DNA of 32,707 nt, taken from positions 1 to 32,707 of the forward strand of contig CAIYYA010000179.1 in assembly GCA_903930255.1 (NCBI GenBank), given 5' to 3'. This stretch comes from an uncultured beta proteobacterium. GTDB lineage: Bacteria > Pseudomonadota > Gammaproteobacteria > Burkholderiales > Burkholderiaceae_C. The position numbers were made by a program, and so were the translations under genes. Of the stretch, positions 5,140 to 21,868 are shown piece after piece (the first letter of the stretch is position 1; each line of letters begins with the position of its first letter). The notes under the pieces are model-generated. The model saw only the letters and a program-made list of their open reading frames with translations. It was not told the DNA's origin and searched no databases.

Positions 5140-6114
5140 TCATTGTAAGAGCGGCTGGGTGCTGCCCAACACTTCGCGCTTTCGGCTCAGAGTTTTGACT
5201 TGCATACCATCACGTTGCAGCAGCGACTGCTCTTGCACCAAGGCGTGTCCGACCCTGAGCTGACCGGTTACGCTGAAAAAACGCGATGCGACAACGTGCT
5301 CGGTTGAATCCAACTGCAGGCGTGCATCACCCAGCAACTGCTTGGCGTCGTCGAGCGTTTTCATCGGCTGGATGGCACGCGCATCCACCAACTTGCGAGC
5401 CTGCGCCTTGTCGAGTTGCACTATGCAGGCCAGCAACACTTCGGCAGAGGCGGTGTTCAGGTTAACCGGTGTGCGCTCGGGCAGCAAGGTGATGAAGGGT
5501 TGCAGCACTTGCAGGGTTTCGCTCGACACGCCAAGCCAAGCCAGATCAGCGACCGTTTGCGGGCGCAACGGACTGGGCGACTTGTCGGGTGCCGGGTTAG
5601 CCCAGTCAGACGCCGATTGCAGGTTGAGCAGCAAGCGCTGCAGCTCGCTCTCGGGCAGATTCAGCTGCCTGAAGAGCCGCTCCCAAAAGAACCGCGTCGG
5701 CTCATGCAATTGGCCATTGCTGAGTAAATTGCTGAGATTCAGGCGCGCTTGCTGATCTTGCATATAACCGGCCAAAAAGGCGTCCTGACTGCTGTCAATT
5801 TCGTCGCTGACCAGCGCCTCCCCACGCTCGGCTGATAAAAAAGTGGACAGGCGCGCGGGTGCCAGCGGCACGGCCCAAGGCTCGCCCAAGTGATCGGCAC
5901 CACCTTGACGCGCATCTTCACGCAAAATCATCCGCGCCCAATCGAGCGCACCGGTCAAGATCCAGGCCGATTGCACGCGTGTGCGCTGAGCCGACTCGAT
6001 CTCGACACTGCGCCACTGCTGCCAAAGCATGGCGCTGGCCAGCGTTGCCACCAGCACCACGGTCAGCATGGCCGTCAAAATGGCCGCGCCACGCTGTTGC
6101 GAAGGCCAACTCAT
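5140..6114 (-). CDS. gspK: Type II secretion minor pseudopilin GspK
   Basis: GspK is the largest minor pseudopilin and caps the pseudopilus tip with GspI and GspJ. The 324-residue product begins with a short basic leader ending QQRG, followed by a hydrophobic helix (AAILTAMLTVVLVATLASAML). It lacks the Glu at mature position 5, a known feature of GspK that sets it apart from the other pseudopilins. The globular part carries the GspK-type helix-hairpin-helix signature TPVNLNTASAEVLLA at about residues 215-229. The start overlaps the gspJ stop (ATGA). Confidence 0.95.
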   Translation of the reverse strand: MSWPSQQRGAAILTAMLTVVLVATLASAMLWQQWRSVEIESAQRTRVQSAWILTGALDWARMILREDARQGGADHLGEPWAVPLAPARLSTFLSAERGEALVSDEIDSSQDAFLAGYMQDQQARLNLSNLLSNGQLHEPTRFFWERLFRQLNLPESELQRLLLNLQSASDWANPAPDKSPSPLRPQTVADLAWLGVSSETLQVLQPFITLLPERTPVNLNTASAEVLLACIVQLDKAQARKLVDARAIQPMKTLDDAKQLLGDARLQLDSTEHVVASRFFSVTGQLRVGHALVQEQSLLQRDGMQVKTLSRKREVLGSTQPLLQ

Positions 6115-6815
6115 TGGCCACCGCCCAGCTGCCCGCGCACCCAGTCACGCGTGAGCATGCCACTGATAGCCTGGCCTGGCGCCAGCGTCAGTTGCAGGCG
6201 TACACCTTCAGGCAGCGTGTTGTTGGCCAAGCCGGCTACAGGGTTGGTGGCTACCGGGGCACTGGCAGCAGCACTCGCCGGTGCAGGGGTTGCATCGGCT
6301 GTCCCGGCGCTAGAAAGCGGATTGCTCCAGGTGTTGCCACGGAAATAATAAATTTGCCAGGCCTCCAAAGCCACCGTTCGCACTTCGCGCAGGCGGTCTG
6401 CATCGCTGGGTGTTTGCACCCACAACTGAGCCCACTGCCAAGCTTGCGTCAGCTCTGTGCGAGTGTGCAGCACTGGCGATTGCCAGCGCATCAATTGAGC
6501 GTCGGCACTGCGTCGTGCCCAGGCCACCACCAGCAAGCCAGCATCGGCAGCATCAGCGCTGCGCCGCACCATGCGCATCGTGCGACCGTCCCAATCGAGA
6601 CTTGGCATGCCGGGCTGCTCGGCGATGGCATCCAGGTCAACACCCCATTGCGCCAGCGTGGCCTGCAGGGCCAGCACGTCATCAGCGTGCTGTTGCAACT
6701 GCACTTGCGCACGACTGATGCCATCCAGGCCACGCCAGCCCAGCAGTGTCATCAAGGCCATCAGGCTGATGGCTATCAGCAATTCAATCAGAGTAAAGCC
6801 GCGAACCCGTTGCAT
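6111..6815 (-). CDS. gspJ: Type II secretion minor pseudopilin GspJ
   Basis: The prepilin signature MQRVRG/FTLIELLIAI gives a cleavage after Gly6 and Glu at mature position 5, so this is a substrate of the prepilin peptidase. The length (234 residues) and the GWRGLDG block after the helix are typical of GspJ, which forms the pseudopilus tip with GspI and GspK. An Ala/Pro/Thr-rich loop near residues 170-190 (SSAGTADATPAPASAAASAP) looks like an unstructured insertion. The start overlaps the gspI stop by one base (TGATG) and the end overlaps gspK by 4 bp. Confidence 0.94.
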   Translation of the reverse strand: MQRVRGFTLIELLIAISLMALMTLLGWRGLDGISRAQVQLQQHADDVLALQATLAQWGVDLDAIAEQPGMPSLDWDGRTMRMVRRSADAADAGLLVVAWARRSADAQLMRWQSPVLHTRTELTQAWQWAQLWVQTPSDADRLREVRTVALEAWQIYYFRGNTWSNPLSSAGTADATPAPASAAASAPVATNPVAGLANNTLPEGVRLQLTLAPGQAISGMLTRDWVRGQLGGGQ

Positions 6816-7177
6816 CAGTAGCGCCCCACGACCGTTGAAAGGCGCCAGATCGGCACCTCGGCATCGAGCACCCGCGCGTCCACACGTCTGAAATTAGGGT
6901 TGGGCGTGGGTCGCACGGTGAGCTCCAGTTTCAGGCTACGCCCGGCTTGTTCACACGCATGTGTGGTGTCACCCACATCGGGCATTTGTTTTGCCAGGCG
7001 GACTTTGATAAGCTCGTTTTCTGCACAAAGCTGTGCCAGCAGCATGTCGGTCGAGCGCTGGGCATGCCGGGTCAGTGCGGCTGTTGCCTGCATCCCCGCC
7101 ATCAGAGCGATAGCCACAATGCCCAAGGCCACCAGCACCTCAACCAGGGTAAAGCCCGAGCTTGCCAAGCGTTTCAT
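6815..7177 (-). CDS. gspI: Type II secretion minor pseudopilin GspI
   Basis: The 120-residue product has the prepilin signature MKRLASSG/FTLVEVLVAL, with cleavage after Gly8 and Glu at +5. Length and position between gspH and gspJ fit GspI, the minor pseudopilin that starts tip-complex assembly. Two Cys residues lie in the globular domain (AQLCAENE and HACEQAG) and could form a disulfide in the periplasm. The start overlaps the gspH stop as ATGA. Confidence 0.94.
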   Translation of the reverse strand: MKRLASSGFTLVEVLVALGIVAIALMAGMQATAALTRHAQRSTDMLLAQLCAENELIKVRLAKQMPDVGDTTHACEQAGRSLKLELTVRPTPNPNFRRVDARVLDAEVPIWRLSTVVGRY

Positions 7178-7701
7178 GGCATGGCCTGCACAGCAAATGG
7201 CCGCACACCGTCGGTGCCCAAGCGCAAGCGCTGTGTGGGCTGGCTACGCGAGAGCAGCGTCAGAGTTTGTGGCGCAATGATGGGCTCGGGGCCAAGTAAC
7301 AGCACAGCAGAGCGTGATACGTCCTCGGTCAAAAGAGGGTCTTGGCTCAACGAATTGACGCTGGCGCGGGTGTCAGTGTCAAGCCAGACTTGGGGCAACT
7401 CGTCGTCACGGGTGTCTGTTTTGGGTAAGCCCTCAAAAAGGAAACCCTCGGGTGTGACACGCCAACGCACAGCCACACCACTGACTTGTGAGCGCGCGCG
7501 TGCCGACTCAAGCAAGGCCGCCAGCCGCAGTGCCTCGCGTTCAAGACGGGTTTGTGTGCCATCACGTATTGAGAATCCAACCCCGGCGGAGGCAATGGCA
7601 ACAATCGCCAGCACCACCAACAGCTCCAGCAGGGTAAAACCGGCCGCCTTTAGGGAAACTGCCAATATCCCATTTTCGGCGGCACTGACGGGCGCTTCCA
7701 T
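7174..7701 (-). CDS. gspH: Type II secretion minor pseudopilin GspH
   Basis: The signature KAAG/FTLLELLVVLAIVAIA identifies a type IV pilin-like minor pseudopilin of the GspH/FimT type; the product has 175 residues. The leader before the cleavage site is unusually long (21 residues). Its first dozen residues (EAPVSAAENGIL) are encoded by the left arm of an inverted repeat whose partner lies after gspG. The true start is therefore uncertain. A TTG at codon 13 could be used, and an out-of-frame ATG inside the arm leads to an early stop. The globular domain (IRDGTQTRLEREALRLAALLESARARSQ) matches the GspH helix pattern. Confidence 0.88.
   Translation of the reverse strand: MEAPVSAAENGILAVSLKAAGFTLLELLVVLAIVAIASAGVGFSIRDGTQTRLEREALRLAALLESARARSQVSGVAVRWRVTPEGFLFEGLPKTDTRDDELPQVWLDTDTRASVNSLSQDPLLTEDVSRSAVLLLGPEPIIAPQTLTLLSRSQPTQRLRLGTDGVRPFAVQAMP
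7664..7694 (+). repeat. Inverted repeat arm A (left), in the gspH leader
   Basis: The 31-base arm is complementary at 28 of 31 positions to 7840-7870 by hand alignment. It covers the codons of the first residues of GspH. The similarity continues leftward with gaps to about 7645 (the TTTAGGG segment opposite CCCTAAGG at 7885-7892). Confidence 0.8.
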
Positions 7702-7721
7702 TCGTTTGGCTTTTTCACACC

Positions 7722-7746
7722 CCTAAGGGATGCAGAAATTGCAAAT
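7722..7746 (+). repeat. Inverted repeat arm B (left)
   Basis: The 25-base arm begins CCTAAGGGATGCAG and is complementary at 23 of 25 positions to 7868-7892. Together with that right arm it bounds a segment of about 170 bp that fills the gspG-gspH gap. Confidence 0.82.
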
Positions 7747-7839
7747 GTAACGTTTATGGCGAGTGCTGGAGGGATGCAGCGCTAGGCGCTCAGAGCGCAG
7801 TGTGGCAAGTCCACACAAGCGATGAGCAACGAAGCAATG

Positions 7840-7870
7840 CGCCCGCCAGTGCCGCCAGAAATGGGATATT
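7840..7870 (-). repeat. Inverted repeat arm A' (right)
   Basis: Partner of 7664-7694 (28 of 31 complementary). It overlaps the first bases of arm B' at 7868-7892. Confidence 0.8.
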
Positions 7871-7892
7871 TGCATTTTCTGCATCCCTAAGG
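7868..7892 (-). repeat. Inverted repeat arm B' (right), containing the gspG stop codon
   Basis: Partner of 7722-7746 (23 of 25 complementary). The gspG TAG at 7887-7889 lies in it, so the last codon and the stop of gspG are part of the repeat. Confidence 0.8.
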
Positions 7893-8330
7893 CTGCCAAC
7901 TGCCAAGGTCGGCATTTTTGCCTTCGCCACCGGCTTGGCCGTCGGCGCCATAGGACATCACATCGACTTCGCCCTTGATGCCGGGATTCAGATAAACATA
8001 GGGCTGCCCCCAGGGGTCTTTGGGCAGCTGGTCGAGATACGTTTTCCAATTGGCTGGCACAGGCGCTGTGCTGGGCTTGGCAATGAGCGCTTGCAAACCC
8101 TGCTCGGCACTGGGGTAGCGCTGGTTGTCCAACCGATACAGCTTGAGCGCTTGCATCAGGTTGCTGACATCGGTTTTAGCGGCGGTAACGCGCGCATCGT
8201 CAGCACGGTCGAGCACATTGGGCACGATCAGCGCGGCCAACACGCCAATGATGAGTAGCACCACCATCAGCTCGATCAAGGTAAAGCCGTCTTGCAGCTT
8301 GCGGTGGAATGTAGATGATTTTGCGTTCAT
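7887..8330 (-). CDS. gspG: Type II secretion major pseudopilin GspG
   Basis: The 147-residue product is the main subunit of the pseudopilus. The leader MNAKSSTFHRKLQDG is followed by FTLIELMVVLLIIGVLAALI, with cleavage after Gly15 and Glu at +5. The globular region holds the family hallmarks: the helix block TDVSNLMQALKLYRLDN, RYPSAEQGLQAL, and DPWGQPYVYLNPG in the calcium-loop region, ending YGADGQAGGEGKNADLGSW. It is the first gene of the T2SS operon in this window. There are 72 bp between it and the upstream co-directional urea-transporter/M23 gene, so it could have its own promoter there, but I see no convincing -35/-10 pair. Confidence 0.97.
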   Translation of the reverse strand: MNAKSSTFHRKLQDGFTLIELMVVLLIIGVLAALIVPNVLDRADDARVTAAKTDVSNLMQALKLYRLDNQRYPSAEQGLQALIAKPSTAPVPANWKTYLDQLPKDPWGQPYVYLNPGIKGEVDVMSYGADGQAGGEGKNADLGSWQP

Positions 8331-8358
8331 GTCGTCAGTGTCGCTCGGGTAAGGGGTT

Positions 8359-8373
8359 GCGCTTTCAAAGCGC
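8359..8373. other. Short perfect palindrome upstream of gspG
   Basis: GCGCTTTCAAAGCGC is a perfect 7+1+7 palindrome in the 72 bp gap between the urea-transporter/M23 gene and gspG. No T-run follows on the minus strand, so it is a poor intrinsic terminator. It could be a weak hairpin or a protein-binding site. Confidence 0.35.
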
Positions 8374-8402
8374 TGGCAAGTTTAGCGACAAATCGCCTGG
8401 TT

Positions 8403-10553
8403 TCATGCCAGTGCCACTTCCCAGGCTGGCACACCCATGTCGGCGCGCTGAAAAGAGCTGGTAGCTTGCAGGGTGTAGTGCGACGATCCAATTTGAGCCG
8501 TCAGGTAAACGCAGCCAATTTGGGGCGCAATGCGCGCTTGGGTTTTGACTTCGATCTGCGAAACCCCCTGCCGATGCCGCGCCTCCTGGCGCCACGCCTG
8601 CAGTTGCTCGTCCCAAAAGCGTCGATGCTCGCTGCGCGCAAATGTGGCCCAAGGCCACAGGCAGCGTGCCCATAACTTGGCACCCAGATTTGGAAACAAA
8701 TACGCTGGCGTGGCGGCATCTTGCCAAAGATCAACATCGAATGAGGCCGGGTTATAGCCACAGGCCAGCAACCAAAGGTCAAAATACGGGTCAGCCACGG
8801 CATTGCGCTCATAACACGAAAAAACCGCCCAGGTTGACTCTGCAACACAACGCGCACCTCGGCTTGACACCAGCACGAGACGCCCCAAATCGTCGACCTC
8901 ACAACGCAGCGTCCAGTCAAACCGGGTGTTTTCGTTGTGCGCCACGGTATAGCGCAAACCACGGCCAACCAGCAAATACAGGGGGCGCACATGGGCATTT
9001 TGAGCGCTCGTCAAAACCGCACCCTCGGGTGGAACCAGCACCAGCTTGTATTGCGCAGCCTGGCCGGCCTCGGCAAGCATCACACTGGCCAGATGAAAAG
9101 GCGCCGTGGGCGAGCCTGGCTCATCGCTGGTTTGCACATGCATGTGGATATGCGGCTGGGGTGAGCGCCCCGAATTGCCACAATGTCCCAACAAATCACC
9201 TGGCTTGACCCAAGCCCCCACAGCCACCACAAGAGAACCCGGCTTGAGGTGTGCCAACAACAAATAACGCCCTTCATAAAGCTTGATCACAACATAGTTG
9301 CCCCAGTTGGCCGAGACGTTGATAGCGCCTGGCACGTTGTCGGGCACATCATTGGCAATGCGCCAAACTTGTCCATACACGGGTGAGATCACCGGCAAGT
9401 TGTAGCAATAAAAATCTTCCAGGCGGCTGCCTCGATTAACAAAGCTTTTCCCGCCCTTGAGCACCATGAAATCGAGTGCATGCCGCCAAGGGCCTTTGTG
9501 CGTATGCGCTCCAGAGAAACCTTGCGACACCGCCCATTGCCCCATGTAAGGCAAGCCGACAGGGACACTGCCCGGCTCACCAATGCGCTCACGGCTGATG
9601 CAGGCTCGCTCATAGGAGCGCTCAGGAAAGTCGGGGAGTAGCAAATTAAAACTGCTGGCCATGGTAGTGTTGCGCACAGCGGCATACAACACCAGCCACG
9701 AGGCCAGCACAAATGGCACCGAAAACGGCACCAGATGAGCGACATCGAGCAAACGCCCCAGTGCCAGAGCCAGCCAGGCAGCCAAAACGGCAGCCAGCAT
9801 GGCCAAGCCCGCCGTGAGCAAAGAGGGCGTGGCAAACAGCCCACCGACCAGCAAAGCCGCCAGCATGGCATTGCTGTCCCAGGCGGTGCTGGCCAAGTGC
9901 TCAGGCGCCGCACCCAACAACGTTAGCCAAGCGGAAGACAACACGTAGGCCAGCACGGCGAGCACGACAAAATAGCGCGAAACCACTAGCAGGCAGAGCA
10001 GCACAAGCAAGCCAGCCCATGGGTTGGGCATGAAATAGAGCGCACCCAAGGCATTCAAAAATGGGTCAACCCCATTGCCGAACAACTCGGGCGGCGCCAC
10101 ATAAGCCCGAAACTGCAAATTCGACATGCTGGAACTGGCCGCACTGGTGAGCATCGCCCCCAAAGCAAAGGGCAGACTCAAAATCGGCAAGCGCACCAGC
10201 GACCAGGCCAAACGCGCAAACACCACAGTCAACCAACCCGAAAAAATGCCGCCCAGCACAGCCAGCATCAGCATGCTCAGGCTGGGCAGCCATAGGTGTG
10301 CCACAAACAAACCGCTGAGCAGGCCATTGAAGACACACACCGGGCGTTCAGCGGCATCTGAACCCGCAATTTGGCCGGCATACCAAGCACAAATGGCCGA
10401 CAGCGAACCCACCACACCCACGGCAGGCTCGGCAAAGGTCAGCAAAGCCAAAGGCACACCAGCGCGCCAAGTTGGCAGCAGGGCAATCCAGGCGTAGCCC
10501 AGAGCCAGTTCTTGCAAAAGACGGCGCACATAGCGCTGAAAAATCATCAACAT
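8403..10553 (-). CDS. Urea-transporter-like membrane domain fused to an M23 (LytM) peptidase domain
   Basis: The start is set at the ATG at 10553, 13 bp after the C45 gene; a TTG two codons upstream and an ATG two codons downstream are alternatives. The positions here count from the TTG (718 residues). Residues about 1-295 are highly hydrophobic and show the two-fold pattern of the urea transporter (UT) family. VCVFNGLLSGLF and the half-site PILSLPF lie in the first half, and DSNAMLAALLVGGLF with VPFSVPF in the second; the family's P-x-x-T-x-P-F appears with Ser for Thr. Residues about 330-480 form an M23 metallopeptidase domain: HTHKG (352-356), HALDF (360-364), GNYVVIKL, LLAHLKPGS, HCGNSGRS, and PHIHMH (469-474) with the HxH zinc motif. 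The remaining 240 residues match nothing I know. It could channel urea or a small amide, with the peptidase domain probably on the periplasmic side; both are inference. Confidence 0.85.
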   Translation of the reverse strand: MLMIFQRYVRRLLQELALGYAWIALLPTWRAGVPLALLTFAEPAVGVVGSLSAICAWYAGQIAGSDAAERPVCVFNGLLSGLFVAHLWLPSLSMLMLAVLGGIFSGWLTVVFARLAWSLVRLPILSLPFALGAMLTSAASSSMSNLQFRAYVAPPELFGNGVDPFLNALGALYFMPNPWAGLLVLLCLLVVSRYFVVLAVLAYVLSSAWLTLLGAAPEHLASTAWDSNAMLAALLVGGLFATPSLLTAGLAMLAAVLAAWLALALGRLLDVAHLVPFSVPFVLASWLVLYAAVRNTTMASSFNLLLPDFPERSYERACISRERIGEPGSVPVGLPYMGQWAVSQGFSGAHTHKGPWRHALDFMVLKGGKSFVNRGSRLEDFYCYNLPVISPVYGQVWRIANDVPDNVPGAINVSANWGNYVVIKLYEGRYLLLAHLKPGSLVVAVGAWVKPGDLLGHCGNSGRSPQPHIHMHVQTSDEPGSPTAPFHLASVMLAEAGQAAQYKLVLVPPEGAVLTSAQNAHVRPLYLLVGRGLRYTVAHNENTRFDWTLRCEVDDLGRLVLVSSRGARCVAESTWAVFSCYERNAVADPYFDLWLLACGYNPASFDVDLWQDAATPAYLFPNLGAKLWARCLWPWATFARSEHRRFWDEQLQAWRQEARHRQGVSQIEVKTQARIAPQIGCVYLTAQIGSSHYTLQATSSFQRADMGVPAWEVALA

Positions 10554-10566
10554 AGTCAAGTGTCAC

Positions 10567-11547
10567 TTAGTCCAGATCGACCCACAGCTCAGCAGGCTCA
10601 AAGCAGGCAAACGACTGGTACATGCGCACCCGGTTGGGCCAGCGATATTCCATGGCCCTGAGCTGTGGGTTATAGATGGCAGTGTAGAGCGTGCCAAAAC
10701 CCTGGGCGTAATTGGTCACACGCAAGGGGCTGTATTCAAACGAATGAACAAATGACTCAATGCTCGCCAGCGGGTCCTGCAGTTTCGACAGCAAAAATTG
10801 CTGGCGCTCATAAGATTGTGAAAACATTGCATAGTTGGTCAGTTCAAAATCACCTTGATGATTCACTGCCAGCGGTTTGAACGTGACCTGTGGCGCTGAA
10901 AAAGGGCTCAGCTCGAGCGTTCGCACCTGGCCATAAGTGTCGAGCAAGGTCACGTTATAGGCCATGTGTGCCGGCACCCGGCACAACACTTTGACAGCTT
11001 CATCGACCGTGCAACAAAACTCCAGCACATAACGCAAGATCAGTGCAATGCCAAATCCCTCGGCCACGCCGTCTTGCCCACCATAGGCCAAAGACACGGT
11101 TAAGCCATGTTCATTCATGCCATCGAGTACACCCCACAGGCAGTCGGTTGACGCAATCACAGTCGAATCATGCCAGCGCGATTTCATGATGCGCCCCTCG
11201 CACAGTGCCGGGGCGTAATCGTAGTTGCGCACCAAGGTTGGCGTGTAGCGAGTCCAAACCGCCTGCGAGCAGCCCGACAGATAGGGAGCCGGGCAATACA
11301 TGCTGAGCATGCGGGCGTCCTGATCGTCAGCACCGACCAGTTTCAGCAAGTTTTCCCAAACCGGCAACAACTCGGGCATGTAGTGACCCAGCGCGTCGCG
11401 ACATTGCGCCAAGCCTGGGCGCTTGAGCTCGCCCTCGCTGGCAAACCAGCGCCGATAGCTGGGCGCAGCCGTCTGATAGTGCGCAAGCCACTGCACATCG
11501 GGCAACGCTTCGTCAACGGCTCGGAAAGATTTTTTGTAATAGGTCAT
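10567..11547 (-). CDS. C45-type autoproteolytic acyltransferase/hydrolase (Ntn hydrolase)
   Basis: The product has 326 residues. The pattern G92-C93-S followed by VRNYD (106-110) is the hallmark of C45/choloylglycine-type Ntn hydrolases. In these a Cys is exposed by self-cleavage after a propeptide and acts as nucleophile, and the downstream Arg/Asn/Asp help catalysis. Other family-like stretches are GVLDGMNEHGLTVSLAYGG (nucleophile-core strand pair) and RYVLEFCCTVDEAVKVL. The family includes isopenicillin N acyltransferase and Drosophila Tan, which cleaves beta-alanyl-amine conjugates. No signal peptide is visible, so it is probably cytoplasmic. The start overlaps the ATP-grasp stop as ATGA, indicating coupled translation. 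The substrate is unknown; an amide made by the neighbouring ligase is my preferred guess. Confidence 0.82.
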   Translation of the reverse strand: MTYYKKSFRAVDEALPDVQWLAHYQTAAPSYRRWFASEGELKRPGLAQCRDALGHYMPELLPVWENLLKLVGADDQDARMLSMYCPAPYLSGCSQAVWTRYTPTLVRNYDYAPALCEGRIMKSRWHDSTVIASTDCLWGVLDGMNEHGLTVSLAYGGQDGVAEGFGIALILRYVLEFCCTVDEAVKVLCRVPAHMAYNVTLLDTYGQVRTLELSPFSAPQVTFKPLAVNHQGDFELTNYAMFSQSYERQQFLLSKLQDPLASIESFVHSFEYSPLRVTNYAQGFGTLYTAIYNPQLRAMEYRWPNRVRMYQSFACFEPAELWVDLD

Positions 11548-13055
11548 GGTTGCGTGCGTGCGCTTTTCACGTTAGCCGGGTTATGTGCCAACTCGATCAA
11601 GGCGCGCTCTTGCTGGTTCAGCGGCCGGCTGGGAAACTGCGCTTTCAATGCGTTCACCCAGCGCACACCTGCCGCATTCAGCGCGCCATCGGCAGATCGA
11701 ACCACTTCATTGACAAACATGATCGCCAGATCGGCACCGTGATAGACACACTCCCCAGCCGACATGATGCGCAACACATAGGCCTGGTTTGCGCCCAGCG
11801 CGTCGCGCCGGTTCACACTCGCCGCTTCAAATTGCAGCGTTCCGTCGTCCTGCAAGGCATAAACACCAGAGACCGGCGCCTGAGTCAGATGCTGCAGTTC
11901 AGCCCCGGTGTATTTCAGAATCAGTTGCACCGAAACACCTTGCGCACCCTGTTCCTGCATGGCCTGGTTAAATTGCGCCACGTCAAGCGTTAAATCTATG
12001 GCAGGGTCGTATTCAAGCAAATGAAACAGGAACAATGGTATTTGTGCCATGGCGTAGTCCGACATGTTGGTGAGTGCACTGACACCACTGATACGCGCGT
12101 TGAGTTCTCCCAAAAACACCTCGCCCGTGTCAATGTCGAGCAGAAAATCAAGCTCAAAATAGCCTCGGTAACCACGCTGATACAGCGCATCGCCCATGGC
12201 CTGAGATTTTTGCTGCACCTGCCGCCGAACATCAGCGCCAAACGCCACTTGATCAACCTCGTTACCACACCAGCCACCGCGATAGGGCGTGAGCGATTCA
12301 ATGCCAATCATTTCTGACAGCAGCGGCCCCACAAAAGTGCCCCAGCGCGTCGCACAGGCCTCAATCGCCGTGCCCACGCAGCGCAACCAGCGCATCACCT
12401 TAACTTTGTCTTGCGCTTGGATTTGCTGTGCCACTGCGTTGTAGTCTGCTTCACAGGCAATGAAAAATGTGGTTTTGCCCGAGTCGCCATAAGCCGTTTG
12501 AATCACCCAGCGCGAACCCAAACCCGCCTGCTCAGCCAGCGCTTGCAGATCGGCATAAGACGACACACGCGCCAGCACATTGGGCACACTCGCCACACCG
12601 GCGGCATTGCCGATTTCGGTGGTGACAATCTTGCTGTCGATCTCGCGCACCAGCGCATTTTTTGGCAGCACCACCTCCAGGCCCAAGCCTTCGCACAAGT
12701 CTTCAATTTGCGGGTCAAAAAACAAAAAGAGTGCCTGGGCTGGCCCGCCCGACTGCTTTTTGGCACGAGCGATCAACTCGCGTGTAGCTGAGCTGTTCAA
12801 CAAATAACGGTTCACGTCTTCAATTCCTTCGAACACCTGGGCGTGATCGTCCGCGATCACCAAGGCGCACGGATGGGCACCATCGTAGCAATCGAGCAAA
12901 TTGATGTTGTGCCAGTTTTTCACCCATTCGTGCATGCCCATCATGTTGAAATTGATGGCACTGATAAAGAACAAAGGCACGCTGTTATGGGCAAAGTGCG
13001 CCTTGATGTCTTGCACACTGTGCAAAACTTTTTTGCTTGCTAACGTTTTGTTCAT
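11544..13055 (-). CDS. ATP-grasp ligase (biotin-carboxylase-like fold), substrate unknown
   Basis: The product has 503 residues. The ATP-grasp nucleotide-binding loop is seen as WVIQTAYGDSGKTTFF (about residues 189-204). The metal-binding strand pair is seen as GYFELDFLLDIDTGEVFLGELNARISG (about 299-325), with the Glu and Asn positions expected to bind Mg-ATP. These enzymes join a carboxylate, via an acyl phosphate, to an amine or thiol. The N-terminal 140 residues form a pre-ATP-grasp-like domain and there is a 160-residue C-terminal extension. A strong ribosome binding site (GAGGAAG) precedes the ATG, which overlaps the decarboxylase stop as ATGA. No biotin-carrier or carboxyltransferase gene is present, so 'biotin carboxylase' would be a fold label only. 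Confidence 0.85.
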   Translation of the reverse strand: MNKTLASKKVLHSVQDIKAHFAHNSVPLFFISAINFNMMGMHEWVKNWHNINLLDCYDGAHPCALVIADDHAQVFEGIEDVNRYLLNSSATRELIARAKKQSGGPAQALFLFFDPQIEDLCEGLGLEVVLPKNALVREIDSKIVTTEIGNAAGVASVPNVLARVSSYADLQALAEQAGLGSRWVIQTAYGDSGKTTFFIACEADYNAVAQQIQAQDKVKVMRWLRCVGTAIEACATRWGTFVGPLLSEMIGIESLTPYRGGWCGNEVDQVAFGADVRRQVQQKSQAMGDALYQRGYRGYFELDFLLDIDTGEVFLGELNARISGVSALTNMSDYAMAQIPLFLFHLLEYDPAIDLTLDVAQFNQAMQEQGAQGVSVQLILKYTGAELQHLTQAPVSGVYALQDDGTLQFEAASVNRRDALGANQAYVLRIMSAGECVYHGADLAIMFVNEVVRSADGALNAAGVRWVNALKAQFPSRPLNQQERALIELAHNPANVKSARTQP

Positions 13056-15688
13056 GCTGCTTCCTCGGTATGCAAATAGTCTTCGGTAAACACGCGAAAA
13101 CCGCGTTCAAAATCGAATCCGTGAATTTCTTTAACCTTGACGTGCTGAAAAAAAATGAGAATTTCTACGGTGATGATCTGCCCTGGCACCAGCACCGGAA
13201 AACCGGGCGGATAAGGTGTCACAAAACTTGCTGAGACCCATTGCTTGCCAAGCTTGGCCTGCGCCAGCGTCTCCAAAGACAAGCTGATGTAAGTCACATT
13301 GGCCTCTTGTTCGCCTGCGTAATAAGCACGCCGCACGTCGCTAGCCTGGCAATCGCCACTCTCAAAAGGCACAAAAACAGCATGGAAAATGCGTTTCGCA
13401 GGCAAGGCGATGGATGGCTCGATGTTCAGCGCCAGACGTCGGTGCTCGGTCGCAAAGCGTGCGGCCATTTCATGCAACACTTGCACCAGATAGTCCACAC
13501 TGGCCTGGGTAGCGCCAATGTTGATTAAAAACAGCACGGTATGGCGTGAGGTTTTGTTCACCTGAATGTCATAGCGGGTCATCAGCAATTGCCGAAAACT
13601 GCTGCCGTTAAGTCCGCTACGGCTGACATCGAGCGTGATCCGGGTAGGATCAACCACAAAATCAGACTGACCCCAGAGCGCACTCAAGCCTGCGATATCG
13701 CCAGGTTCATCGGCAGTCGAGTTGCTGCGGTAGCACGCCGGAATCATCTGCGCATCGCCCAGGACTGAAAAATAAGTCTGCAACAGTGTCGACTCACGAA
13801 TGCGCTGGCGCAACTGCAAAGACAGGCGCAAACACTCGCGCACCCGGTGAAACCCCTCCAGTGCCGCCTGACGACGCGCCATGTCGAGTGAGGCAATGAT
13901 CTGGTAATTGGGCGAGGTAGAGGTATGAATGCGAAACGCATCGAGAAAATTAGCCTGCTCGAAACGGGCATCGGCCACATGAATCATCGATGCTTGGCGA
14001 AACGCCGACAGTGTTTTGTGCGTCGACTGAGTGGCATACACCCGCAAACTCACCTGTGCCGGGTCCGGATACACCGTTTTCAGCCACTTATCGGGGTCGT
14101 CATTGGCCTCAAATTGGGCCTGCCAAAGTGCATAAAACTGGTGATATTGCGGATCTTGCAAACGCTGGCGAATTTTCTTCACAGCTCCCATGGCACTTCG
14201 GCTGTGGTAAAGCGGATGGAAATGCGCAAAAGCAAACCAGGCCTCGTCCCAATGAAAAATCACGTCAGGCTTGATGCCGAGCAGTTCCATCATGAAGTTT
14301 TCACAGTGGTAAATCAGCCCGTCAAAGGTCGAATTGGTCAGGGTGATCTGTTTCAGGCGATCCAGTCGACCGTGTTTTTTCAGGTCGAGCATGACGGCTT
14401 TGATCTGCGCTAGATCAATGCAGCCATACAGGTCGTAGTCAACCAGCGGGTAAGTCTCCAGAAAAATCGGCAGCGCCCCGGTGAGCATCACCGAGTAAGG
14501 GATCGATTTATGGCAATCGGCCGAGATCAGCACGATGTCGCCTGGCTTCAAATTCGCCTGCATGACAATTTTGTTCGAGGTCGAGGTGCCGTTCGTCACA
14601 AAAAAACTGGCATCCGCACCAAAGCACTCGGCCGCCTTGGTGTGCGCCTGCTTGATGGCGCCGGTCGGGTCAAGCAGGGAATCCAGTCCGCCCTGTGTGG
14701 ATGAGGTTTCTGCCAAAAACAGGTTGGCACCGTAAAAGTCCAACATGTCGTGAATCCACGGCGAATCTTTCACTGAGGCACCACGCGACAAGGGCAGCGC
14801 ATGAAAAACGCCCTTGGGCTGACGGCTATAGGCCTGCAAAGCATCAAAAAATGGCGCGCTGTAGCGTTGCCGCACGCCATTCAAAATGGCCTGATGTAAA
14901 TCCTGAAACGGATTCACATGAAACAGCACACGATCAAATTGATGGCGTGTTTCAAACACCATGTCAGCTGGAGGCTGATCGCTGATGAGATAGTGATTCA
15001 GTTCGGCGCGCATGCTGCGCAGGCTGCGGCACAAATTGACTTCAAGGCGGTCTTGCCAGCGCGCCGGCAGCGTGGTTTGCAAAAGTGGCTGGCTGTAGCG
15101 CGCATAGAGTGCGCTCGAATCAGCCGATGACTCCGGCACATGGTGCAGGTAAACACAGGCCTGAATATCGGTGTTGGCCAGCGCTGCGCTTAAGGCGTCC
15201 TCGGCACAAGCCACCAGCACAATGTCGTAAAAAAATTCGTCATGTGCAGATTTGAGTTGCGCCAGTTGCTGGCGATAAAGCATCTCGTATTCTTGCGCCA
15301 GCGGGTGCACCAGCAGCACCTCAAAATAAGGCTTGAAAACTTGCGCCGACTGCGCTTGCAAAGCATCATCTTGTTGCAACACCGGGCGATCGAGGCGTTG
15401 CAAGTTGGTTTGAAACGGGCTGAAAACTTGCTGCCGATAGCGCTCTTTAGTCAGCGCATGACAGCAGTTGCCAAGCAATTGCGCCAGCAAAACATACTGC
15501 GCTTGCGCCACATACTGCTGCAAGCGCAACATGACCGCACCACCCGGAAAAGTCCAAAACCGATCGATCTGCGCAAGCTCGTGCAACTGCTGGGTTATTT
15601 CGGCAACCGGCACCGGTTTTTGCTGCACGGCTGTGTGCAACGAACACCAGAGCGACAGGCGCTTTTGCTTCAAATCAAAGCTGTTCAT
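13052..15688 (-). CDS. Orn/Lys/Arg-type PLP-dependent decarboxylase, long form
   Basis: The product has 878 residues, clearly longer than the inducible enterobacterial lysine or arginine decarboxylases (about 715-755). The fold-type I PLP core is well preserved. GLDSLLDPTGAIKQA and FFVTNGTSTSNKIV form the cofactor phosphate region, ISADCHKS carries the stacking His, FHWDEAWFAFA the Asp that pairs with the pyridine nitrogen, and ATQSTHKTLSAFRQAS the Schiff-base Lys (Lys558). The N-terminal 290 residues include a wing/linker region; I do not recognise a clear receiver-like fold there. The product would be a diamine or agmatine, but the sequence does not tell which amino acid is used. It leads the coupled set; the start is 71 bp downstream of the TPR gene stop. 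Confidence 0.9.
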   Translation of the reverse strand: MNSFDLKQKRLSLWCSLHTAVQQKPVPVAEITQQLHELAQIDRFWTFPGGAVMLRLQQYVAQAQYVLLAQLLGNCCHALTKERYRQQVFSPFQTNLQRLDRPVLQQDDALQAQSAQVFKPYFEVLLVHPLAQEYEMLYRQQLAQLKSAHDEFFYDIVLVACAEDALSAALANTDIQACVYLHHVPESSADSSALYARYSQPLLQTTLPARWQDRLEVNLCRSLRSMRAELNHYLISDQPPADMVFETRHQFDRVLFHVNPFQDLHQAILNGVRQRYSAPFFDALQAYSRQPKGVFHALPLSRGASVKDSPWIHDMLDFYGANLFLAETSSTQGGLDSLLDPTGAIKQAHTKAAECFGADASFFVTNGTSTSNKIVMQANLKPGDIVLISADCHKSIPYSVMLTGALPIFLETYPLVDYDLYGCIDLAQIKAVMLDLKKHGRLDRLKQITLTNSTFDGLIYHCENFMMELLGIKPDVIFHWDEAWFAFAHFHPLYHSRSAMGAVKKIRQRLQDPQYHQFYALWQAQFEANDDPDKWLKTVYPDPAQVSLRVYATQSTHKTLSAFRQASMIHVADARFEQANFLDAFRIHTSTSPNYQIIASLDMARRQAALEGFHRVRECLRLSLQLRQRIRESTLLQTYFSVLGDAQMIPACYRSNSTADEPGDIAGLSALWGQSDFVVDPTRITLDVSRSGLNGSSFRQLLMTRYDIQVNKTSRHTVLFLINIGATQASVDYLVQVLHEMAARFATEHRRLALNIEPSIALPAKRIFHAVFVPFESGDCQASDVRRAYYAGEQEANVTYISLSLETLAQAKLGKQWVSASFVTPYPPGFPVLVPGQIITVEILIFFQHVKVKEIHGFDFERGFRVFTEDYLHTEEAA

Positions 15689-15759
15689 AAACTGCTGTTG
15701 GGTTAAGTTAAATCATCGATTGAAGAAATCTTTTGCACGCGCTTTTGCATCCGTCGGCT

Positions 15760-16371
15760 TTATTTCTTTTCGAGATAGGCCTTGGCCTCGAGATGCCCTG
15801 GGTAACGCGCCAGCACCGCAACATAAGAAGCCATCGCATCATCACGCTTGCCCAGCCAGGCGCTGGCACGTGCCATATAAACATGCGCGGTGGCATCGGA
15901 GGGATAGCTTTGCACCATGGCCGTGGTGATTTTTGCCATGACAGACCAGTCTTTTTGCGCCTCCAACGCCAGCACCAGACGCAACATGGCGGTGTAATTG
16001 TTCGGTGCCAAGTTCAAAGCGGCTTGGGCACTTTGCTCAGCTTCACGCCAGCGCTTGGCGGCCAGCAAAGGCAGCGTCAAACCCAAACGGGCATCCACCG
16101 ATTTTGGATTGCGCTCGACCGCCAGCCGATACTCACGAATCGATTCGTCAAATCGTCCGGGCAAATAATATAACCAGCCTCTGCGCAACAATTTCAGCTC
16201 GGCCTCTGGGCCGTTGGCTGCAACCTGATCAATGGCACTGAGTGCCTCGGTGTATTTGCCAGCTGACTCAAACTGGTAAGAGTTTTGCCAAAGCACCTCT
16301 TGGGCAATAACGGGAGCAGCCAATAAGGTCAGGGATGCCAGCAGGGTTGCCAGCAAAGTTGAAGGTTTCAT
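15760..16371 (-). CDS. Exported TPR-repeat protein
   Basis: The 203-residue product begins with a signal peptide (MKPSTLLATLLASLTLLAAPVIA, cleavage after VIA at about residue 23). The rest is tetratricopeptide repeats: about four to five helix pairs with the usual G/A-Y-x-P spacing (KYTEALSAIDQ, RFDESIREYRLAVERNPKS, RWREAEQSAQAALNLAPNN, KRDDAMASYVAVLARYPGH). A periplasmic scaffold role is likely, but no specific partner can be named. It lies 71 bp upstream of the decarboxylase on the same strand and may be the first gene of that operon. It is divergent from the response regulator, with a 169 bp shared region that holds the candidate operator. Confidence 0.85.
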   Translation of the reverse strand: MKPSTLLATLLASLTLLAAPVIAQEVLWQNSYQFESAGKYTEALSAIDQVAANGPEAELKLLRRGWLYYLPGRFDESIREYRLAVERNPKSVDARLGLTLPLLAAKRWREAEQSAQAALNLAPNNYTAMLRLVLALEAQKDWSVMAKITTAMVQSYPSDATAHVYMARASAWLGKRDDAMASYVAVLARYPGHLEAKAYLEKK

Positions 16372-16480
16372 GATGAATGTGACTCCGTTGAAATAATTTA
16401 TCAGTTAGCGCCTAAATGGCTCTTGCATTGTGCAGGATGAATTTTGCTGGCGCTGCATAACGGCATGCCGTGACCCTGCG

Positions 16481-16496
16481 TGACAGTTTTGTAATC
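16481..16496 (+). promoter_or_regulatory. Candidate response-regulator operator, regulator/TPR divergent region
   Basis: TGACAGTTTTGTAATC lies 45 bp before the regulator start and about 110 bp before the divergent TPR gene start. It matches the reverse complement of the element at 18789-18806 at 14 of 16 positions (TGAC-N-GTTTTGT-N-AT). Self-regulation by an OmpR-type regulator through such a site is common; its use here is inference. Confidence 0.5.
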
Positions 16497-16540
16497 TTGC
16501 TTGCCGTGCGATGGCGTAAGCTCGCGGTGAGGATCTGATC

Positions 16541-17269
16541 ATGAAAATACTACTGGTTGAAGACGAAAAAAAGATCGCCGACTTCGTTTGCGCAGGCTTC
16601 AAAGAGCAGCGTTTCGTCTGCGAACACTGCGCCAACGGCATCGATGGCTACGACAAAGCCAGCACGGGCAACTTTGATGTGATCGTGCTCGACATCATGC
16701 TGCCCGGTCGCGATGGCTTGTCGATACTCAAGGGGTTGCGCAAGGCTGGCAACGTGACGCCGGTGATCTTGCTCACCGCGCGCAATGAGCTCGATGACCG
16801 CATTGAGGGTTTGTCACTGGGTGCCGATGACTATCTGGCCAAGCCCTTTTTTGTTGAAGAACTTGTCGCCCGGGTACAAGCGCTACTGCGCCGGGTTTCT
16901 GGCGAACGGCAAAACATTTTGAGCGTGGGTGACCTCAAGCTCGACCGCATCACGCGTGAGGTGACCTGGTGCGGTGAAACCGTCGATCTGACCGGGCGCG
17001 AGTTCAACCTGATCGAATACCTGATGCGTTCGCCCGGTCGGGTTTTTACCCGCACGCAAATTTTGGAACACGTGTGGGACTACGACTTTGATCCCAGCAC
17101 CAACATCATCGATGTGTGTATTCAGCGCATTCGCAAAAAAATGGCCTCGATTGGCGTTGCTGCAGATGGCTTGTCGGCCATTGAGAGCGTGCGCGGAGTC
17201 GGTTACCGCTTTCGCAAGCTGGCTGCCTGTCAGGCTTTGGTCGTCGATAGCGAGAATCGGCCCACATGA
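16541..17269 (+). CDS. OmpR-family response regulator
   Basis: The product has 242 residues. The receiver domain (1-120) has the acidic pair Glu7/Asp8, phospho-acceptor Asp51 (VIVLDIMLPGRDG), Thr79 and Lys101 (YLAKPF). The DNA-binding winged helix (about 128-226) shows REFNLIEYLMRSPGRVFTR, VWDYDFDPSTNIIDVCIQRIRKK and the VRGVGYRF hairpin. The style (VEDEKKIADFV, WDYDFDP) is that of the CopR/CusR/PmrA-like branch. The start follows a GTGAGG ribosome binding site, and the stop overlaps the kinase start by 4 bp, so the two are co-translated. Confidence 0.95.
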   Translation: MKILLVEDEKKIADFVCAGFKEQRFVCEHCANGIDGYDKASTGNFDVIVLDIMLPGRDGLSILKGLRKAGNVTPVILLTARNELDDRIEGLSLGADDYLAKPFFVEELVARVQALLRRVSGERQNILSVGDLKLDRITREVTWCGETVDLTGREFNLIEYLMRSPGRVFTRTQILEHVWDYDFDPSTNIIDVCIQRIRKKMASIGVAADGLSAIESVRGVGYRFRKLAACQALVVDSENRPT

Positions 17270-18810
17270 TCAAATCGTTTCAAGTTCGCCTGATCTGGCT
17301 TTCGGTACTCGTCAGTGGCCTGGCTCTGAGCGGTTTTGGCATCGGCTCCTGGTGGCTGATTCGTGGCATTCAAATCGAGCGCATCGACAGCGAAGTGCGT
17401 GCCCACGCTGAGCGCGAAGCTGGGCGTACACGCACCCCCTTTGCCTGGCAGCGCTTTGAGTCCACCGTGTTGAGCAATTTTGGATTGCGTCAATCCGATG
17501 AACTTTTGCTGCTGGTGCAAGACGCTGCAGGGCAGGTAATTTACCAATCCGCAGACTGGCCCAACAGCCTCGAAACCGATCGCCTGCCTTGGCCGAGTCG
17601 GCAGGATGCCCACAAGCCCGGCCCCTGGATTCAACTGCTCAGACCCCCTCCGCCTGACGGCGCGCGTCTCTCTCAAGGCTCAGCGCCATCAGAAGGCAAC
17701 CCCAAGGCGCCACCCGGCACAGACTTCCTACCACCCGGCATGCGTCCGGCGGCCTCGGTCATTTTTCGAGATATTGGCACTCAGCAGTGGCGCATGGGGC
17801 TGGCCAGCACCGACCGTGCCCGCGTCCTGATTGGCGTGAATGCCAAAGTCATCGATGACGACATGATCAGTGTGCGCAATGCCTTTTTAGTGGCCATCCC
17901 TTTTTCCTTAATTTTGATCAGTCTGGGCGCCTGGGTGCTCTCCAGCCGGGCTCTGCGGCCGCTAAAAAAACTCACCGCGGCAACCCGGCAGGTGACTGCC
18001 CAGGGATTGGATCAACGCATCGCTGCCATCGGAGAAGACCGCGAATTCAGGGAACTGATCGGCGTATTCAACAGCATGCTCGAACGCCTGGAGCGCAGCT
18101 TCTTGCAGGCCAACCGCTTCTCTGCCGATGCAGCACACGAACTTAAAACACCCTTGGCGATTTTGCAAGGTCAGCTTGAGCGCGCCATCCATCAGGCAGA
18201 AGATGGCTCGGTCTTGCAAGGCGAGCTCACCAGCATTCTGGACGAAGTGCGCCGACTCTCCACGATCTCGCGCAAATTACTGCTGCTGGCGCAAGCCGAT
18301 GCTGGGCGCATGCGTGTTTTCAAGGAACCATTTGACTTGACGCTGGCTCTGCAAGACTTGCTCGAAGACGCGCAGATGCTGGCACCTCAGCTGCAGCTCA
18401 GCAGCGCCATTGAAGCGAACTTGGTGCTTGCGGCAGACAGCAGCCTGCTGCGCCAGGTGTTGCACAACCTGATCGGCAACGCCATCAAATACAACCTCGA
18501 ACCTGGCTGGATTCACCTTTGCGCACAGCGCCACGCCCAGCAGATTGAAGTGACGGTTACGAATGCATCGCATGGCATCGCCAAGCTCGACGAGAGCAAA
18601 CTGTTTGAACGCTTTTACCGCGCTGACACGGCACACAGCAGGCAGGTTGAAGGGGTTGGACTGGGTTTGAGCCTGTCGCGCGAAATTGCCCGTGCCCACG
18701 GTGGCGACATCACGCTCAAGCCACCCACCGAAGGTCAAGTTGAATTTGTCCTGACTTTACCGTGTAACCCGCAAGATGGGGTTGATAGCATGACAAAACC
18801 GTCATCGTGA
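17266..18810 (+). CDS. Sensor histidine kinase, partner of the OmpR-type regulator
   Basis: The product has 514 residues. TM1 is at about residues 8-33 and TM2 at about 206-228; the periplasmic sensor region of about 170 residues between them contains a Pro-rich loop (PPPDGARLSQGSAPSEGNPKAPP). HAMP follows TM2 (RALRPLKKLTAATRQVTAQGLDQRI). The HisKA box is DAAHELKTPLAILQGQLE with phospho-His at 291. In the ATPase domain the N box has Asn405 (LHNLIGNAIKYN). The usual D-x-G-x-G box is degenerate (TNASHGIAKLDESKLFERFYRAD), while the G2 box VEGVGLGLSLSREIA is intact. The degenerate G1 may weaken or alter ATP binding. The signal is unknown; metals, cationic peptides or envelope stress are typical for this subfamily. 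Confidence 0.93.
   Translation: MIKSFQVRLIWLSVLVSGLALSGFGIGSWWLIRGIQIERIDSEVRAHAEREAGRTRTPFAWQRFESTVLSNFGLRQSDELLLLVQDAAGQVIYQSADWPNSLETDRLPWPSRQDAHKPGPWIQLLRPPPPDGARLSQGSAPSEGNPKAPPGTDFLPPGMRPAASVIFRDIGTQQWRMGLASTDRARVLIGVNAKVIDDDMISVRNAFLVAIPFSLILISLGAWVLSSRALRPLKKLTAATRQVTAQGLDQRIAAIGEDREFRELIGVFNSMLERLERSFLQANRFSADAAHELKTPLAILQGQLERAIHQAEDGSVLQGELTSILDEVRRLSTISRKLLLLAQADAGRMRVFKEPFDLTLALQDLLEDAQMLAPQLQLSSAIEANLVLAADSSLLRQVLHNLIGNAIKYNLEPGWIHLCAQRHAQQIEVTVTNASHGIAKLDESKLFERFYRADTAHSRQVEGVGLGLSLSREIARAHGGDITLKPPTEGQVEFVLTLPCNPQDGVDSMTKPSS
18789..18806 (-). promoter_or_regulatory. Candidate response-regulator operator upstream of the DUF1566 gene
   Basis: The element is TGACAAAACCGTCA, itself a TGAC-N6-GTCA palindrome, at the very end of the kinase gene and about 70 bp before the start of the DUF1566 protein. 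Read on the minus strand it is TGACGGTTTTGTCAT, matching the site at 16481-16496. It suggests the DUF1566 gene is a target of the adjacent two-component system. Confidence 0.5.
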
Positions 18811-20944: not shown

Positions 20945-21868
20945 CTACCAGGCGCGCGCGAGCTTGGCGAAGCCCTCTGGCGCGAGTTTTTCATCATCGA
21001 ACGTCACAACGTCCCAGGCGTTGGTGTGCTGCAACAGTTCGCGCAACAGCAGGTTGTTGAGCGCATGACCCGATCGAAACGCGCTGTAACTGGCCAGCAT
21101 CGGCTTACCCAACAAATACAAATCGCCCATGGCATCGAGAATTTTGTGTTTGACAAACTCATCGTCGTAGCGCAAACCACCGGCGTTGAGAACCTTGTAG
21201 TCATCCATCACAATGGCGTTGTCGAGCCCACCGCCAAGCGCCAGGCCGTTGGCACGCATCATTTCGACGTCTTTGGTAAAGCCAAAAGTGCGTGCGCGGG
21301 CAATGTCTTTAGAGTAAGAGCCTGTGCCCATGTCAAACAAGACGCGCTGGCCAGTTGAATCAACTGCCGGGTGACTGAAATCAATTTCGAAATTAAGTTG
21401 GTAGCCGTGATAGGGTGACAAACGCGCCCATTTTTCGTTGTCGCCTTGCCCCTGGCGCACCTCAACCGGTTCCAGCAGTCGAATAAAGCGGCGTGGTGCG
21501 TTTTGCAGCGCAATACCCGCGCTTTGCAGCAAAAAAACAAACGAAGCAGCCGAGCCGTCAAGAATCGGCACTTCTTCGGCGGTGATATCCACATACAGGT
21601 TGTCCACTCCCAAGCCGGCGCAAGCTGACATCAGGTGCTCAACCGTGTGCACCTTGGCGTTGCCCTTGGAGATGGTGGAGGCCATGCGCGTGTCGGTTAC
21701 GGCCAAAGCGGATACGGGTATATCCACCGGGTCGGGCAAGTCAACACGCCGAAAAACAATGCCTGTGTCGGGCTGCGCCGGCCGCAAGGTGATTTCGACG
21801 CGCTGCCCGCTATGCAGTCCCACGCCAACGGCTCGGGTCAGGGATTTGAGGGTTCGTTGTTGCAGCAC
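20945..21868 (-). CDS. lpxC: UDP-3-O-acyl-N-acetylglucosamine deacetylase LpxC
   Basis: LpxC catalyses the committed zinc-dependent deacetylation of lipid A synthesis in the cytoplasm. The 307-residue length is standard. The motifs are intact: [17 protein letters not shown] with the catalytic Glu77 and zinc ligand His78; [15 protein letters not shown] with zinc ligands His241 and Asp245; and SGHALNN with the catalytic His268. RTFGF (193-197) and [10 protein letters not shown] are also typical. In many proteobacteria lpxC closes the dcw cluster after ftsZ. Here the upstream neighbour is a TolC-type gene 80 bp away, so it has either been separated from ftsZ or the T1SS locus was inserted. Confidence 0.97.

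Follow-up and report, generated by a model that had tools for sequence, protein, structure and literature searches.

The window analysed here is a 32,707-nucleotide stretch of contig CAIYYA010000179.1 (assembly GCA_903930255.1) from an uncultured beta proteobacterium. Its open reading frame (ORF) list contains a reverse-strand run of five genes, encoding in order a TPR protein, a decarboxylase (DC), an ATP-grasp protein (ATPG), a member of the C45 family (C45) and a fusion of a urea-transporter-like (UT) channel with a Peptidase_M23 domain (UT-M23). In related genomes, DC and ATPG are replaced beside UT-M23 by an unrelated pair, so that one channel protein is paired with either of two unrelated decarboxylases, which have different ATP-grasp partners, and the TPR protein and an outer-membrane-barrel-like protein are partly shared. 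Because two unrelated enzyme pairs adjoin one channel protein, we suggest that the channel serves the product of the decarboxylase and the ligase. We put at roughly one half the probability that the DC/ATPG/C45 cassette encodes an amide-conjugate pathway in the cytosol, with a channel in the envelope coupled to it. More tentatively, UT-M23 could be the membrane end of an undescribed small-molecule system fed by either pair (DC and ATPG with C45, or a fold-III LysA/FslC-like decarboxylase with a PRK12767-type ATP-grasp enzyme); it would transport or process an amine-derived amide, not urea, and in several lineages would hand it over to a TPR protein of the periplasm and a barrel in the outer membrane.

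The five genes of the window are likely an operon in which the TPR gene comes first. The TPR gene (15760-16371, reverse strand; TPR_14, E 1.1e-12), whose product has a signal-peptide-like N-terminus as judged by eye, lies 71 bp upstream of DC. An earlier note on this DNA described three genes overlapping by 4 bp each. The count needs correction, as three genes make two such overlaps, DC/ATPG and ATPG/C45; the 13 bp given for the distance to the fourth gene is right when UT-M23 starts at its ATG, and a TTG start would leave 7 bp after the C45 stop. Below, genomes and loci carry the designations G and L, G000 being the genome of the window (377 contigs, estimated contamination 6.5%).

Two enzyme pairs beside one channel protein

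UT-M23 (E 1e-30) occurs in 14 of the 274 genomes sampled from the class, including the window's own. Three of these (the own genome, G292 and G309) carry DC and ATPG. In ten others, an ATP-grasp enzyme of the PRK12767 type (AG2, ~357 aa) and a fold-III LysA/FslC-like decarboxylase (~462 aa) are encoded directly upstream of UT-M23, at 11 loci that hold both genes, with distances of at most ~50 bp or overlaps. In the fourteenth, G238, UT-M23 lies at the edge of a contig next to a fragment of a LysA-like gene, and the AG2 search gave no match. Conversely, AG2 (E 1e-40) was detected in ten of the 274 genomes, all ten of them positive for UT-M23 (Fisher 1.8e-15, uncorrected for relatedness). The sample held no UT-M23 clearly apart from a decarboxylase and ligase pair, with G309 placed by its contig ends and G238 lacking AG2.

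The two pairs show no significant similarity in BLASTP, neither between DC and the LysA-like decarboxylase (best E 0.41) nor between ATPG and AG2 (best E 0.27), both of the latter being broadly ATP-grasp. Residues that probably form the active sites of the two alternative enzymes are invariant at all 11 loci. A TPR gene follows UT-M23 in six of these loci and a barrel gene in five, the contig ending at UT-M23 in at least two of the remaining loci (L127 and L131), and an OmpR/CpxA-type regulator pair adjoins three of the 11. At L129, a tyrosinase-family gene (6929-8488, reverse strand) lies 320 bp downstream of UT-M23.

An FslC/LysA-like decarboxylase dependent on pyridoxal phosphate (PLP) is common to the alternative pair and to the pathways of siderophores made independently of nonribosomal peptide synthetases (rhizoferrin FslC, vibrioferrin PvsA/PvsE), and the vibrioferrin pathway also employs an ATP-grasp enzyme. 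The alternative clusters differ from those pathways in their membrane protein, which is UT-M23, and a partial look at their neighbours (10 and 8 proteins scanned) found no siderophore synthetase.

Family assignments and conserved residues

DC (13052-15688, reverse strand, 878 aa) matches OKR_DC_1 (PF01276) with 254 bits against a curated cut-off of 27 (E 3e-75) and scores under the cut-off of the six lysine, arginine or ornithine decarboxylase models scanned. Its residues 31-877 match PDB 9n0o with 637 bits; this structure is Mycobacterium tuberculosis Rv2531c, and DC shares with the Rv2531c-type decarboxylase (also 9n0n and 9n0p) a similarity over nearly the full length. S555, H557 and K558, as well as D481-E482-A483-W484, are invariant in all 34 aligned sequences, and we take S-x-H-K to be the PLP lysine motif and DEAW to be the acidic site. 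The alignment retains 34 of 36 rows, with L079 and L080 omitted, and includes five DC homologues without an adjacent ATPG (L047-L051). From these features, DC is predicted to be a fold-type-I PLP decarboxylase of an Rv2531c-like long subfamily.

Four of the homologues without ATPG (L048-L051), on plasmids of Phyllobacterium, Rhodobacter, Ensifer and Rhizobium, also lack C45 and adjoin aspartate-alanine antiporter (aspT) genes; an aspartate 4-decarboxylase gene is present at two of these loci and an HdeA/HdeB-type chaperone gene at one, which makes an acid-stress setting possible for them. The window's own genome encodes a second, distant fold-I decarboxylase on another contig (L145, G000:C69; 822-aa open frame, 39% identity over the core).

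ATPG (11544-13055, reverse strand, 503 aa) has no Pfam match. Its profile matches the ATP-grasp domain of biotin and pyruvate carboxylases, and it scores 537 bits (E 2.7e-161) against NF005096 (PRK06524, 'biotin carboxylase'), under the 684-bit cut-off, which was passed in four of the 274 class genomes. G190-D-S-G193, T195, T196, D303, E317, N319 and R321 are invariant in all 37 aligned sequences and are presumably the Mg and ATP positions of the ATP-grasp fold. The same 37 sequences carry RITGAS-like letters where aligned biotin-dependent carboxylases have R(I/L)QVEH, a carboxylase hallmark. ATPG is likelier to be a carboxylate-amine ligase than a carboxylase, because the ATP-grasp residues are kept and the QVEH stretch is replaced; with that stretch absent throughout and the NF005096 cut-off missed, the biotin carboxylase candidate was rejected. 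The alignment comprises 37 of 41 ORFs, L045, L046, L080 and L083 having been omitted as near copies. A 'putative biotin carboxylase' of the Paraburkholderia phymatum symbiotic plasmid (Bphy_7724), which bears a similar label and may or may not be an ATPG homologue, is reported to be up-regulated in nifA mutant bacteroids (PMC8305402).

C45 (10567-11547, reverse strand, 326 aa) exceeds the cut-offs of both PF03417 (AAT/C45; 121.8 bits versus 23.2, E 4.6e-35) and NF040521 (144.6 bits versus 85, E 4.2e-42). C93, R107-N-Y-D110, N229 and R248 are invariant in 39 of 39 sequences and G92 is kept in at least 90% (39 of 42 rows aligned; L046, L080 and L083 omitted). We regard the Gly-Cys cleavage site, together with the set of Cys, Arg, Asp, Asn and Arg, as the hallmark of a self-cleaving N-terminal-nucleophile enzyme. 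C45 is therewith a putative hydrolase or acyltransferase of this class, with self-cleavage predicted between G92 and C93.

UT-M23 (8403-10559, reverse strand) has 718 aa when read from the TTG, an ATG start at 10553 being likelier. Its channel domain spans residues 21-293 and its Peptidase_M23 domain residues 389-481, with a further stretch at the C-terminus. The channel domain scores 117.8 bits against PF03253 (cut-off 25, E 6.9e-34) and the peptidase domain 39.9 bits against PF01551 (cut-off 28.7, E 5e-10). H354, D363, H437, H470 and H472 are invariant in 16 of 16 aligned homologues, and we assume that these are the metal-binding and catalytic positions of the M23 domain, the H354-D363 spacing being longer than is usual. 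Truncated, split, duplicate or uncleanly called copies were omitted from the alignment (L008, L077, L080, L084, L085, L127, L131). The copy in the same-genus genome G023 (L077:10948-13156) is split over two overlapping ORFs, by an assembly error or a frameshift.

The bacterial urea transporters (UT/Yut) have in common with UT-M23 a UT domain over the Pfam cut-off and a conserved N-x-LLVG-like stretch. UT-M23 differs from them in carrying the M23 fusion and the further C-terminal stretch, in reaching 64.5 bits against TIGR03441 (urea_trans_yut), under the equivalog cut-off of 274.6, and in showing no urease enrichment in its genomes, as discussed below. Judging by the UT domain, the cargo may be a small neutral amide. 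In the segment after the channel, lysine and arginine outnumber aspartate and glutamate in 13 of the 16 homologues, the window copy being balanced (5 versus 5). By the positive-inside rule, this weakly hints at a cytosolic peptidase domain, and such a domain might conceivably cut a conjugate rather than the cell wall.

Recurrence of the cassette

ATPG is rare and patchy. Counting high-scoring matches, with the own genome included and all samples drawn from one phylum, we found it in two of 60 relatives (the own genome and G023), eight of 274 genomes of the class, seven of 349 of the order and ten of 349 of the phylum, and also in six of 289 genomes of another class of the phylum, that of G727, G727 included. 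These overlapping samples pool to 28 distinct ATPG genomes from 20 families; L008, L009 and plasmid loci are uncounted, and L080 (G563) and L009, whose contigs are equally long (39,334 bases) and have the same gene layout, are probably the same genome. Genes at the loci were picked with family guidance and tblastn, so that gaps, taken from tblastn ends, are approximate, and four loci (L097, L099, L102, L133) break off within the cassette or close to it.

C45 is present at the ATPG locus in all 28 genomes, and in 26 it lies directly downstream on the same strand with a gap under 600 bp. DC is at the locus in 25; in 24 it shares the strand of ATPG and adjoins either ATPG or C45. The suggestion of the earlier note that these genes form a unit thus extends well beyond one strain. 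The three core proteins, ATPG, C45 and DC, have correlated distance matrices (r 0.74, 0.88 and 0.70; 0 of 2000 permutations as high), which fits genes travelling together, but shared ancestry alone can produce such a correlation. No ATPG relative was found in viral_contigs, and viral spread of the cassette was rejected on this ground.

The partners of this core vary. A carbon-nitrogen hydrolase (CNH, PF00795) gene is found at 15 of the 28 loci. UT-type partners accompany ATPG in nine genomes, with UT-M23 at the locus in eight and, in G309, near the end of another contig; a TPR gene occurs in nine, all UT-type. CNH and UT-M23 never share a locus (0 of 28), and four loci, two of them on short contigs, have neither CNH nor UT-type partners. 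UT-M23, which had been presented as a fixed member of the set, is accordingly one of several partners, as it is found in eight or nine of the 28 genomes and is also paired with a different decarboxylase and ligase. An outer-membrane-barrel-like protein is encoded in seven of the nine UT-type genomes, the window and G023 not among them; the 'barrel' label reflects the look of the sequence, and Pfam gave nothing. One query, run without a control genome known to match, found no barrel elsewhere in G000 or G023. Three genomes of one family (L081-L083) have CNH-ATPG-C45 without DC, close to a gene for a KdpD-type sensor kinase. CNH-ATPG-C45 genes are also present in Cupriavidus necator N-1.

ATPG also matches 32 plasmid records, of which 14 were fetched and 13 loci counted. 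The uncounted one (L105, Sinorhizobium medicae) holds ATPG fragments only, as do seven S. medicae plasmid records in all; L105:8001-8634 corresponds to two short hypothetical proteins. C45 follows ATPG in 13 of 13 plasmid loci and DC is present in nine, those of Rhizobium leguminosarum, S. meliloti SM11, Roseobacter ponti, Cupriavidus oxalaticus and Pseudorhodobacter. The ATPG-C45 genes of Shinella, Roseateles XES5 and Sinorhizobium RAC02 lack DC and are embedded among arginine genes (annotated; by homology in RAC02): agmatinase, 5-guanidino-2-oxopentanoate decarboxylase, aldehyde dehydrogenase (ALDH), D-amino acid dehydrogenase and alanine racemase. The Roseateles XES5 plasmid has a DC homologue ~550 kb from ATPG-C45.

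On one R. leguminosarum plasmid (L104) the cassette stands beside nifHDKEN, and on another (L045) it is ~10 kb from nifA, with the C45 gene shortened next to insertion elements; this proximity to nif genes may bear on nodule metabolism. On two plasmids of clover-associated R. leguminosarum (L040, L044), a radical S-adenosylmethionine maturation cluster for ribosomally synthesized and post-translationally modified peptides and a Glu/Leu/Phe/Val dehydrogenase gene lie just upstream of the cassette.

Proposed pathway and its alternatives

The chemistry that follows is inferred throughout, as are the sequence of the reactions, the cargo and the direction in which it moves, and the mode of control. 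DC would yield an amine by decarboxylating an amino acid that is either free or already part of a conjugate. ATPG would activate a carboxylate with ATP and join it to an amine. At a later step, C45, once self-cleaved, would hydrolyse or transfer the acyl group. Transport of the product, or of something cleaved from it, across the envelope would be the task of UT-M23, whose M23 domain may trim the cargo. UT-M23 is perhaps assisted by the TPR protein in the periplasm and, where relatives encode one, by the outer-membrane barrel; the two-component system encoded divergently may regulate these genes. The proposal of the earlier note that an amine conjugate is made and broken survives to the extent that the conserved decarboxylase, ATP-grasp and N-terminal-nucleophile residues are compatible with an amide of an amine. 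We also count in favour of an amide-conjugate pathway the neighbours in other versions of the cassette (ABC importers, a gabT-type aminotransferase, ALDH, agmatinase and 5-guanidino-2-oxopentanoate decarboxylase), which handle peptides, amines or arginine.

If this pathway exists, the urea-transporter fold would have acquired a new kind of cargo, and Rv2531c-type decarboxylases, as well as proteins labelled 'biotin carboxylase' without the carboxylase hallmark, would gain a pathway context. The two enzyme pairs, expected to make the same or a similar molecule, would offer a natural comparison.

Several observations weigh against the proposed pathway. UT-M23 is missing from the locus in 19 of the 28 ATPG genomes, and taken alone ATPG is modestly associated with it in the class sample (three of eight ATPG genomes, Fisher 0.005). 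The gene order is broken up in G324 and G198, and DC is absent from the locus in three genomes of one family and at four of the 13 plasmid loci. The sequence retrieved around the alternative pairs showed no C45; it is therefore dispensable for the UT-M23 step and probably serves a step special to the DC and ATPG route. Moreover, AlphaFold models built from three-row alignments reached a mean predicted local distance difference test score of only 45.1 and 33.6, and the closest solved relative of DC, Rv2531c, has no assigned activity (PMC12910592).

The main rival is a catabolic carrier route like the gamma-glutamyl-putrescine (Puu) pathway, since importers, aminotransferases and ALDH near the CNH-type and plasmid loci suggest catabolic use; we nevertheless judge it unlikely. 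In such a route, DC would make a diamine, and ATPG would mask one of its amines by attaching an amino acid. The opposite end would be oxidised by a transaminase and an aldehyde dehydrogenase, after which either C45 or the CN hydrolase would free the carrier and an omega-amino acid. In keeping with it, ALDH and/or a gabT-family aminotransferase (labelled so from L041) is encoded within ~8 kb in L041, L052, L073, L086 and L099, peptide-type ABC or TRAP importers stand beside several cassettes, and the arginine genes of Shinella, Roseateles XES5 and, by homology, Sinorhizobium RAC02 would lead from arginine to gamma-aminobutyric acid. However, the window operon lacks a transaminase and an ALDH, none was recognised near the UT-type clusters, and UT-M23, the TPR protein and the barrel are left unexplained. 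The logic of the Puu pathway, a masked amine that is made and later cut, resembles that proposed for the cassette. Puu employs a glutamine-synthetase-fold ligase and a class-I-amidotransferase-like hydrolase, and the PuuA and PuuD families had no match among the cassette proteins scanned.

An envelope modification, in which the amine or amide made by the enzyme pair becomes linked to peptidoglycan or to the outer membrane and M23 opens the wall for it, appears distinctly improbable. The invariance of the presumed metal and catalytic positions of M23, the TPR and barrel-like partners, and the OmpR/CpxA-type regulators and an NlpC/P60 gene beside the alternative cluster L122 would all suit it. 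On the other hand, the charge bias after the channel hints weakly, the window copy being balanced, that M23 is cytosolic, and no wall-related genes were recognised in the CNH-type loci, where most neighbours lacked annotation. Least credible of all is a urea system in which the agmatine formed by DC gives off urea at some other place and the UT domain carries this urea out of or into the cell: the UT domain does pass its Pfam cut-off, genes for urease and three members of the arginase family are present in G000, and agmatinase is encoded near ATPG-C45 in the Shinella-type loci, but UT-M23 falls under the TIGR03441 cut-off, and in an indirect test neither urease (6 of 19 genomes with UT-M23 versus 15 of 40 without) nor the arginase family (9 of 19 versus 18 of 40) was enriched, seven of the 19 having neither. 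This test covered 19 of 20 UT-M23 genomes (G238 omitted) and 40 UT-negative genomes that were hand-picked, non-randomly, from the class list at 90% completeness or more; urea as the cargo, one of the two options in the earlier note, is thus unsupported.

The amide-conjugate pathway proposed here also resembles the Ebony/Tan cycle, in which the cutting step belongs to Tan, of the same C45 (AAT) family; the ligase is an ATP-grasp enzyme here, and Ebony is an enzyme like a nonribosomal peptide synthetase. Small-molecule pathways that combine a ligase with a decarboxylase are known. In the titles and opening lines of abstracts of the open-licence literature searched, we found no pathway with the present combination, in agreement with what had been claimed from the sequence, and the set together with its channel appears undescribed there.

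Neighbouring genes

Divergent from the TPR gene, a response regulator (16541-17269) and a histidine kinase (17266-18810), both named from sequence and BLAST clustering with no family scan, are encoded on the forward strand. It is possible that this two-component pair regulates the cassette. A homologous pair adjoins the clusters in L009, L077 and L080, and the kinase that in L079 as well; among the nine UT-type loci, the pair stands beside only some, and a TPR homologue beside all nine. The region between the TPR and two-component genes (16372-16540) is, going by the gene layout, likely to be the control region. A promoter consensus scan of 7500-17000 returned three sites against a shuffle mean of 4.2, that is, no excess.

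Downstream of UT-M23, reverse-strand ORFs at 6111-8330 have pseudopilin-like N-termini and, by eye, the look of type II secretion. Beyond the two-component genes, a Pfam scan recognised an Lcl_C-domain protein at 18874-20115 (forward strand) and LpxC at 20945-21868 (reverse strand).

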